Below, one piece after another: positions 54,107 to 57,929 of a DNA stretch of 64,000 nucleotides. Source of the stretch: Gemmatimonadota bacterium (GTDB taxonomy: Bacteria > Gemmatimonadota > Gemmatimonadetes > Longimicrobiales > Gaopeijiaceae). Position 1 is the first letter of the stretch; each line of letters begins with the position of its first letter. The translations under genes and the position numbers were made by a program. The notes beneath the pieces are model-generated. The model was given only the letters and a program-made list of their open reading frames with translations. It searched no databases and had not been told where the DNA came from. The stretch is from NCBI GenBank assembly GCA_022823145.1, contig JAJDXS010000080.1, positions 62,001 through 126,000 of the forward strand. The letters are read 5' to 3'.

Positions 54107-55121
54107 GAGCGGACCCCGGCGGGTGCGGATCGGCGTGATCGGGACGGGGGTGACGAGCCAGTTGCTGCACCTGCCGATCCTCAGCGAGCGCGCCGACGTC
54201 GAGGTAACCGCGATTTCGGACCTAGATGCGGTCAAGGGACAGGCCGTGGCCGAGCGCTTCGGCGTGCCGCGCGTGCTGACCGACGACGAGCTGATCGCCG
54301 CGGAGGAGATCGAGGGCGTGGTGATCTGCGCGCCCAGTTTCCTTCACGAGAGCTTTGCGGCGGCCTGCCTCGAAGCGGGCAAGCACGTGCTGGTCGAGCG
54401 TCCGCTGGCGCTGTCGCCCGGCGGGGCACGCCACCTGCTGGAGGTCGCCCGGGCGACGGGCAAGGGCGTTGTGACGGGGCTGTCGCACCGCTATCAGGCC
54501 AATGTACGGGCGTTGCGCTCCGCGATCGCCGAGGGTGCGCTGGGCGAGATCGGCACCGCGAGGGTGACCTGGCTCAACCGAGCCGTGCGACGTCCGCGGA
54601 CGGGGTGGCGGCGGCGTGCGCTGGAATCGGGTGGCGGCGCGCTGATGGACCTGGGGGTGCCGGCGCTGGATCTCGCGCTCTGGGTGCTCGGCTACCCGGA
54701 GATGGGCCGCGTGGCCGCCACCACCCGCGGCGACGGCTTCGACGTGGAGGAGGAGGCGCACGTCCATGCGGTTACGCGTGACGGGGTGGCCGTGACGCTC
54801 ACGGCCAGCTGGCGCCTGCATGCCCCCGCGGACCGTCACCGCCTCTGGGTCCTCGGCTCGGAGGGCAGCGCGCGCCTGTCACCGCTCTCCATCTACAAGC
54901 AGATCGGGGGGCGCACGGTCGACATTACCCCCCGCCAGCCCATCCCGCGCGGCGGCGAGGACCACTTCACCAACGGCTACCGCCGCCTGCTGGACGAATT
55001 CGTGCGGGTCGTCGGGGGGACCGCCGCCGCGATGCCTCCTACCGACCAGATCGGGCTGATGACGCTCATCGAGGCCGCCTACGAGTCGGCGCACGAGGGT
55101 CGCGAGGTCAAGCTCTCCTGA
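54099..55121 (+). CDS. Gfo/Idh/MocA-family oxidoreductase
   Basis: 340 aa NAD(P)-dependent dehydrogenase of unknown substrate. Rossmann start 'RIGVIGTGVTSQLLHLPIL' near 8; 'AVAERFGVPRVLTDDELI', 'EGVVICAPSFLHESFAAACLEAGKHVLVERPLALS' (split) with the conserved E-K/R-P-like 'VERPLAL'; the C-terminal alpha/beta domain has 'ESGGGALMDLGVPALDLALWVLG' (split), the G-G-x-x-x-D-x-x-H-like position. Typical Lys in EKP is Arg here (ERP), which occurs in part of the family. It overlaps rimO by 8 nt and lnt by 1 nt, so is translationally coupled to housekeeping genes, yet its own role is unclear. Confidence 0.88.
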   Translation: MLESGPRRVRIGVIGTGVTSQLLHLPILSERADVEVTAISDLDAVKGQAVAERFGVPRVLTDDELIAAEEIEGVVICAPSFLHESFAAACLEAGKHVLVERPLALSPGGARHLLEVARATGKGVVTGLSHRYQANVRALRSAIAEGALGEIGTARVTWLNRAVRRPRTGWRRRALESGGGALMDLGVPALDLALWVLGYPEMGRVAATTRGDGFDVEEEAHVHAVTRDGVAVTLTASWRLHAPADRHRLWVLGSEGSARLSPLSIYKQIGGRTVDITPRQPIPRGGEDHFTNGYRRLLDEFVRVVGGTAAAMPPTDQIGLMTLIEAAYESAHEGREVKLS

Positions 55122-56704
55122 TGTCGCCGCCGGGCGCCGCGGGCCCGCCGTCCGGGAGCACCGCGCCCACCGCACTATTCCTCGCTGCCGCCTCGGGCCT
55201 CGCGATCGGCGCCACCTTCTCCCCGCACGGAGGCCCCGTCGTCCCCTTCCTGGCCTTCGCCCCGCTCGCGGCCTCCCTCTCCCTCACCACGCGCGACCTC
55301 TCGGCGCCCCCCCTGGCCCCCTTCGCACAGGGCTTCACGGCCGCCGTCGTCGCGCACGGGATCGGTCTCTACTGGATGGTGCCGTCGCTCTCCTGGCGAA
55401 CGCCGCTGGCGGTCCCCACCTACCTCCTCGTCCTGCTCCTCATAGGCGTCGTCGCGGGTGCGGCCTGCGGCGCCGCCACATTCCTTCACGGCCGCAAGGG
55501 ATGGCCGCTGGCGCTGGCGCTCGCCGCCTGCTGGACCGGTTTCGAGTGGCTGGCGGCACGCGTACCCTGGGTCCCCTACGCCTGGCTCAACGCGGGAGGC
55601 TCGCTCGCATGGCATCCGGCTCTGGCCGCCGGGGCCGAGGTGTTCGGGGCGCGGTTCCTGACCTTCTGGACGGTGGCGGCGGGGGCTTGCCTGGCGGCTT
55701 TGCCAGTGCCGTGGTGGTCCTGGTCACGCCGGCTCCTCGGCTCGTCACCCGTGCCCCGGGCCGCGCCGCGCACCATCGCCCTCGTCTCGCTCCTGCTGGC
55801 CCTTCCCGCGCTCGCAGGCCAGATCCGCCAGGCCGCTCTCGACTCCCCGCTCAACGCGGGCGCGCTGGCGGAGGTCGCGGTCGTACAGCCCGGACGCACC
55901 GGCGGCGACCTCGATCGGTGGCTCGACCCGCTCCGGGACCAGGCGGGCATCCGGCCCTTCGTCGCGGCGGTTTTCCCGGAACGCTTCCTCGGGGTCCCGG
56001 GTCCCGACCTCGCCCGGTCCGCCCGCGCGCTCCAGACCGACATCCTGATCGGCGCCCTCGACGCCGAACCGCTTGCCGACAGTCCGGACACCCTCTGGTA
56101 CAACGCCGCCTTCGTACAGCCCGCCGCCGGCCCCGCACCGCCGCCGTACCGCAAGACCCGCCTGGTCCCGGGACTGGAAGCCACGGGAGTCTGGCCGGCA
56201 GCCGGACGCCCTCTTCCCGGCCGCGGCTATGCGGTGGGCCGCGACCCTCGTCCACTGACGCTGGGCGGTCACCCCACGGGCGTCATGATCTGCTACGATT
56301 CGGCCTTCGAGGCGACCGCGCGCACCCTCGTCCGCGCCGGGGCCGAGTGGCTGGCGGTCATCTCCAACGACGACTGGCTGGACCCCGGGCGCCCTTTCCG
56401 CACCACCTGGGCATACTGGCAGCATGCGACGCACGGACGTCTTCGCGCGATTGAGAACCGGGTGTCGGTGATTCAGGTCGGAGCCACCGGCTACAGCTTC
56501 GCGGTGTCTCCAGCGGGCAGGGGAGCACCCTACGCGCTCGAACCCGGCGCGGAGGGCGTCGCGGTTCTCACGGCGGCGCCCCCGCGCGGCATCACCCTCT
56601 TCACGCGCACCGGCGACCTCCTCGGCGTGGTCTGCTTCGCCGTCTTCGTGGCGGGGGCGATCGGCGGCGCGATGCCAAATGTAATGTCGAGATTACATTT
56701 GTAA
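55121..56704 (+). CDS. lnt: Apolipoprotein N-acyltransferase
   Basis: Last step of lipoprotein maturation, 527 aa. About six N-terminal spans (LFLAAASGLAIGATF to LVSLLLALPALAG), then a nitrilase-like periplasmic domain from about 250. Expected triad: Glu in 'AVFPERFLG', Lys in 'PYRKTRLVPGLE', Cys in 'GVMICYDSAFE'; the later 'VISNDDWLD' and 'HATHGRLRAIENRVSVIQ' match the family. All three are present, so activity is likely. It would N-acylate the many lipoproteins of this window. The ORF ends within the tandem dyads at 56677-56717, so its C-terminal tail (MPNVMSRLHL) is encoded by regulatory-looking DNA. Confidence 0.9.
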   Translation: MSPPGAAGPPSGSTAPTALFLAAASGLAIGATFSPHGGPVVPFLAFAPLAASLSLTTRDLSAPPLAPFAQGFTAAVVAHGIGLYWMVPSLSWRTPLAVPTYLLVLLLIGVVAGAACGAATFLHGRKGWPLALALAACWTGFEWLAARVPWVPYAWLNAGGSLAWHPALAAGAEVFGARFLTFWTVAAGACLAALPVPWWSWSRRLLGSSPVPRAAPRTIALVSLLLALPALAGQIRQAALDSPLNAGALAEVAVVQPGRTGGDLDRWLDPLRDQAGIRPFVAAVFPERFLGVPGPDLARSARALQTDILIGALDAEPLADSPDTLWYNAAFVQPAAGPAPPPYRKTRLVPGLEATGVWPAAGRPLPGRGYAVGRDPRPLTLGGHPTGVMICYDSAFEATARTLVRAGAEWLAVISNDDWLDPGRPFRTTWAYWQHATHGRLRAIENRVSVIQVGATGYSFAVSPAGRGAPYALEPGAEGVAVLTAAPPRGITLFTRTGDLLGVVCFAVFVAGAIGGAMPNVMSRLHL

Positions 56705-56717
56705 TATTGACATTACA
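56677..56717. promoter_or_regulatory. Two tandem 18-bp dyads (operator-like) at the lnt/prfA junction
   Basis: TGTAAT-GTCGAG-ATTACA (56680-56697) and TGTAAT-ATTGAC-ATTACA (56700-56717) are two copies of one dyad, TGTAAT-N6-ATTACA, with a 2-nt gap; centres are 20 bp apart, two helical turns. The first extends to AAATGTAAT/ATTACATTT. A TACA-TT-TGTA core (56694-56703) also fits the TACAnnTGTA type bound by BlaI/CopY-family repressors, by comparison only. TTGACA sits at 56707-56712. The region is AT-rich in GC-rich DNA. The regulator is not in the window. Confidence 0.6.

Positions 56718-56840: not shown

Positions 56841-57925
<1,085 letters not shown>

Positions 57926-57929
<4 letters not shown>

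Follow-up and report, generated by a model that had tools for sequence, protein, structure and literature searches.

TaoR proteins, reportedly described by Rajeev et al. in 2019, are said to regulate tungstoenzymes as well as the transport of molybdate and tungstate. In the common view a local regulator has only a small number of sites, whereas global factors for nucleoid structure or termination make up a class of their own. TaoR-like proteins are listed with an HTH_17 domain in PMC11980592, and TaoR represents the closest known family to the protein that we consider here as the candidate binder of a dispersed DNA element. One copy of this element lies at the junction between lnt and prfA (Table 1) in the window, i.e., the whole stretch of 64,000 nucleotides that was analyzed. 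Comparison among genomes establishes the architecture of the element, its link with a regulator gene, the conservation of its half-sites, and its placement at gene 3' ends.

The initial annotation had singled out this junction for two inverted repeats of the form TGTAAT-N6-ATTACA, 2 nt apart and with their centers 20 bp apart. Both proved to be exact, whereas shuffles of the window gave on average 0.07 dyad matches (≤2 mismatches) and never two. Its further observations on the junction were also borne out: the repeats occupy an AT-rich patch (37% GC versus about 65–78% in the surrounding DNA), a consensus TTGACA is present within them at 56708-56713, the element takes in the final codons of lnt, and the start of prfA is indeed unusual (see below). 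The distance of 20 bp is a true property of the window copy, but it is not the usual one, since 42 of the 43 copies sampled in the genome of the window have a period of 21 bp and the window copy alone has 20 bp. The closely related species G002 and G015 have identical dyad arms in this copy, with a variable central N6, and also keep the rare form with a 2-bp spacer (N2); the copy is, however, common to the three closest species only. As an unusual form of such restricted occurrence, the window copy is of uncertain strength in its own right. A 20-bp variant near the same genes was also encountered at G006:C8:101532-101569 and G010:C8:165402-165439, by its position upstream of lnt and not at the lnt/prfA junction.

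Table 1. Features at the lnt/prfA junction, with positions given within the window.
Feature	Position	Strand	Remarks
Dyad 1, TGTAATGTCGAGATTACA	56680-56697	no strand	Half-sites TGTAA at 56680-56684 and TTACA at 56693-56697
Dyad 2, TGTAATATTGACATTACA	56700-56717	no strand	Half-sites TGTAA at 56700-56704 and TTACA at 56713-56717
Spacer between the dyads, TT (2 bp)	56698-56699	no strand	3 bp (TNA) in nearly all other copies
TAA stop codon of lnt	56702-56704	+	Part of the dyad 2 half-site TGTAA
lnt (apolipoprotein N-acyltransferase)	55121-56704	+	Pfam LNT_N and CN_hydrolase; 3' end carries the element
prfA (release factor 1)	56841-57929	+	Apparent ATC start; element ends 123 bp upstream

In its general form the element reads TGTMA-N8-TKACA-N3-TGTMA-N8-TKACA, i.e., 39 bp comprising two dyads with a period of 21 bp; the 20-bp (N2) form occurs 0–4 times per genome. 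A box of the BlaI/CopY type (TACA-NN-TGTA) was dropped as a description because its inner spacing fits the window copy only and the standard copy has NNN. Single dyads (≤2 mismatches) number 165 in the 4.49-Mb genome, compared to 5 for the reversed control. A pattern count over 154 genomes of the order revealed 116 copies of the element in the genome of the window and 29–265 per genome in 22 of the 23 genomes of the genus, the exception being G009 with none; the sister genus g12 has 0–5 copies per genome and other genera have 0–2, and a control pattern gave one match in total over all 154 genomes. The genome scan and the comparison with relatives had been set beforehand as the test of the initial annotation, whose suggestion survived it in that there are many copies and their half-sites are conserved. 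Tandem dyads of a similar kind were also sought de novo in 400 kb of G009, where nothing comparable turned up, and in 173 kb from other genera, a small and partly masked sample of the family. Among the GTDB matches listed, the genus members are MAGs labeled Gemmatimonadota/Longimicrobiales, which, on our own reading of the isolate names, come from sponges; these matches also include chance matches to the pattern in Bacteroidetes and others. The smallest genome, G011 (2.8 Mb), has the most elements (265). Three identical copies exactly 249 bp apart at G021:C1:207279-207815 point to a 249-bp tandem repeat that carries one element each. Two contigs of the sister-genus MAG G067 (L309 on C63 and L310 on C164) have the element density of the genus of the window, with proteins 84–89% similar, and probably represent contamination.

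On balance, these distributions and the comparisons below favor an explanation in which a four-half-site TaoR-like operator was multiplied within the genus and took on a roadblock or boundary role at gene ends. The ancestral copy would have been the operator of the regulator gene itself, from which the dispersed copies, 29–265 per genome and mostly right behind stop codons, would have arisen in this genus. The TaoR-like protein would bind these copies, and the distance of two helical turns between the dyads would be suitable for a pair of cooperating dimers. The bound protein would then limit read-through where genes end, forming a roadblock or boundary rather than acting as a promoter repressor, possibly tuned by molybdate or tungstate.

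In stretches of G000 and G015, chosen partly around the best-matching sites and hence leaning to strong matches, 84 classifiable copies (orthologues being counted in both genomes) lie for 37% between convergent, for 51% between tandem and for 12% between divergent genes, compared to 16%, 42%, and 42% for random intergenic positions. In the same sample copies are at a median of 12 bp from a stop codon as opposed to 68 bp for random placement, and 78% of the copies with an adjacent gene 3' end are ≤40 bp from the stop (random: 35%); many further copies touch or overlap a stop codon, as does the one in lnt. Genes were called with a home-made codon-usage finder trained in this analysis. An unbiased sample of 400 kb from the complete genome G021 holds nine copies in tandem gaps, two in convergent and one in divergent gaps, and one inside a gene; most of these are again found close behind a stop codon, and enrichment in convergent gaps is absent (2/12). 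Only about 6% of the gaps in these 400 kb carry the element, which is, therefore, not a general terminator. Within tandem gaps the upstream stop is preferred over the downstream start only weakly (13/21 and 15/20). The operator-like layout noticed by the initial annotation thus stands insofar as it denotes a protein site, given about 116 copies, selected half-sites and a double dyad before the regulator's own gene. As a promoter operator for prfA it finds no support: most copies lie just downstream of stops and divergent promoter regions are avoided, and control of prfA by the window element is not supported. The placement allows the tentative suggestion of a roadblock or boundary role for the protein bound at gene ends, and a part of the copies may well function as ordinary operators.

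The main rival to a boundary role at gene ends assumes the same binder with another job: the elements would organize the chromosome through looping or nucleoid structure, and gene 3' ends would merely be the least harmful places to do so. Several observations agree with this, i.e., the copies of G021 are not biased with respect to origin or terminus (52 sites; KS p=0.51 versus a uniform distance from dnaA), no functional theme was found among 61 flanking proteins, divergent promoter gaps are avoided, and a design with four half-sites suits a bridging tetramer. However, the placement at stop codons (the 12 bp versus 68 bp mentioned above) is tighter than promoter avoidance requires, and we consider chromosome organization somewhat unlikely as the role of the elements.

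The boundary reading draws its candidate binder from the sister genus g12, which has almost no elements but does possess one conserved copy, located upstream of a gene encoding an XRE helix-turn-helix plus PBP_like protein (XRE-PBP). This regulator, encoded in G000 at G000:C23:64017-65123, has an N-terminal HTH_31/HTH_3 domain together with a PBP_like match (PF12727) at 1.9e-49, and no TOBE match. The element occurs upstream of its gene in 4 of 5 g12 genomes, the fifth having a similar stretch with altered spacing, and in all 22 element-bearing genomes of the genus it precedes the start of the gene by 71–149 bp. A degenerate double dyad with a 21-bp period is present 44–86 bp upstream of the regulator in all seven further genera of the family that were compared, in each case exceeding all 400 shuffles (combined p about 3e-11 over 10 genomes tested), and is absent there in 3 genomes of other families. 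At the seven loci inspected the operon order is invariably regulator-modA-modB, with modA and modB recognized by eye from sequence. The regulator classes put forward in the initial annotation, BlaI, MarR or TetR, did not gain support from these comparisons, in which the one consistently linked regulator gene is that of XRE-PBP.

This locus is also an argument for a conventional, large molybdate/tungstate regulon, in which each element would be an operator at the promoter of the downstream gene. The founding copy, 44–151 bp upstream of the regulator-mod operon overall, plainly fits such a role, and roughly half of the copies are situated in tandem gaps, which could hold a downstream promoter. 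On the other hand, convergent gaps, in which a promoter is not to be expected, account for about 37% of the sampled copies, few are divergent, and molybdoenzyme families are absent from the most frequent families among the 61 flanking proteins. We regard a conventional regulon as unlikely to account for the dispersed copies.

Returning to the TaoR-like regulator as binder, a protein search identified one XRE-PBP ortholog in each of the 22 element-bearing genomes of the genus and none in G009, the genome without elements. In the PrfA tree G009 is nested inside the genus (support 100/99 for the genus and 83/75 for the exact place of G009), and, because it lacks both protein and elements, joint loss of the two is the simplest reading. 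The preference for TGTAA versus TGTCA in the outer half-sites differs between two clades (p=1.6e-4) and the same clades differ in the recognition helix of the regulator (SRQAIHAIETGSQ versus SRQAILAIEAGRN); this correlation would back the link between regulator and element but, being essentially one clade split, it is only supportive. The regulator of G011 (G011:C53:3586-4263) is much diverged, with 44% identity and a match over 234 residues only. From the sequence comparisons, the single-copy TaoR-like regulator is likely the cognate protein of the element, and we are rather confident in predicting that the elements are sites of a TaoR-like protein. Alternatively, another DNA-binding protein of the genus could bind the elements, the mod operon being one target among its sites. 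The link of XRE-PBP with the dispersed copies does indeed derive from comparison, yet genera of the family without dispersed copies still have the double dyad before the XRE-PBP gene, and the presence and absence of regulator and element agree across the genus, which renders a different binder quite improbable.

Binding by a protein, be it the TaoR-like regulator or another, is in line with the way in which the elements have been conserved. Between G000 and G015, the identity of 18 orthologous copies amounts to 96.7% in the half-site 5-mers, compared to 80% in N8, 67% in N3, and 80% in the 50-bp flanks, which supports purifying selection on the half-sites. At 20 of 20 reliably mapped orthologous positions the element is present in both genomes (another two, mapped at about 70% identity, probably represent paralogues), and 4 of 6 testable positions are common to deep clades. 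Among the 43 copies compared no two are identical (at most 35/39 bp), no flanking DNA is shared beyond the element, and pairing within the dyads is not significantly above that of shuffled dyads at any position. Consequently, the element is best understood as a double-stranded protein-binding site kept in place, as judged from conserved half-sites, copies that are neither identical nor share flanks, and the lack of covariation, and not as a hairpin or a recent repeat. An RNA or single-strand hairpin was ruled out by this lack of covariation within the dyads, and an intrinsic terminator by the AT-rich nature of the dyads, without a T run or a GC-rich hairpin. Terminator-like hairpins were rare, being encountered near 1 of 40 elements and at 7 of 180 gene ends elsewhere. 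In the stretches L056-L092 of G000 such hairpins lie behind only about 4% of the gene ends (the same 7 of 180 without element), and the genome may rely on modes of termination other than intrinsic terminators. Neither a stem-loop with compensatory changes nor near-identical copies, by which REP/BIME/RAYT elements are recognized, were found. That the elements are selfish REP-like or MITE-like repeats, which spread by copying and settled in harmless places, is extremely improbable: their restriction to one genus, their many copies and a 3'-end placement resembling that of REP sequences would fit, but the diversity of the copies and of their flanks, the absence of paired-base covariation, the positions retained between G000 and G015 and across deep clades, and a constraint on half-sites instead of the whole repeat do not.

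The start of prfA is a matter separate from the element. In the window the homology begins at ATC 56841-56843, with no in-frame ATG, GTG or TTG available, and in the window and its orthologs (L026-L048) this ATC (ATA in G006 and G010) lies behind a GGAG-type ribosome-binding site. At least 10 of the 23 genomes of the genus have no in-frame ATG, GTG or TTG between the preceding in-frame stop and the start codon of prfA. At this position G017 has ATG and G009 has CTG; in four genomes an ATG is located four codons further upstream. prfA seems to start on ATC, and an AUC start that a release factor keeps across a genus deserves a study of its own.

Should the TaoR-like protein indeed occupy its predicted sites, a one-component metabolite sensor, which elsewhere guards one transport operon, could have turned into a genome-wide boundary factor with >100 conserved gene-end sites in one symbiont genus, and molybdate/tungstate status could then tune read-through or chromosome structure genome-wide. 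Provided that protein does occupy the gene-end sites, these would constitute a protein-roadblock boundary system in bacteria and reveal a route from an ordinary repressor to a genome-wide factor. Expansion and loss of the system can be followed side by side, in the genus itself, in its sister genus (0–5 sites), and in a nested species without protein and sites.

Among known dispersed sequences, the REP/BIME elements of enterobacteria are similar in being taxon-specific and present in many copies at gene 3' ends, but the element described here has neither a conserved hairpin nor shared flanks, its protein half-sites are constrained, and it is linked to a regulator. The sites of MatP (matS), SlmA, and Noc are likewise dispersed palindromes for one DNA-binding protein; here, however, there is no origin/terminus bias in G021 and the placement at 3' ends is strong. 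By analogy, the regulator resembles the molybdate repressor ModE in its place in the regulation of modABC, although ModE has TOBE domains and the PBP_like protein has no match to these. With TaoR it shares the combination of an HTH and a PBP-like protein, here encoded directly before modA and modB with a double dyad upstream. It differs in its HTH, which is of the XRE/HTH_3 type and not the HTH_17 given for TaoR-like proteins in PMC11980592, and in the number and location of its operator-like sites, which in a single genus reach 265 and occupy mainly gene 3' ends rather than a few promoters.
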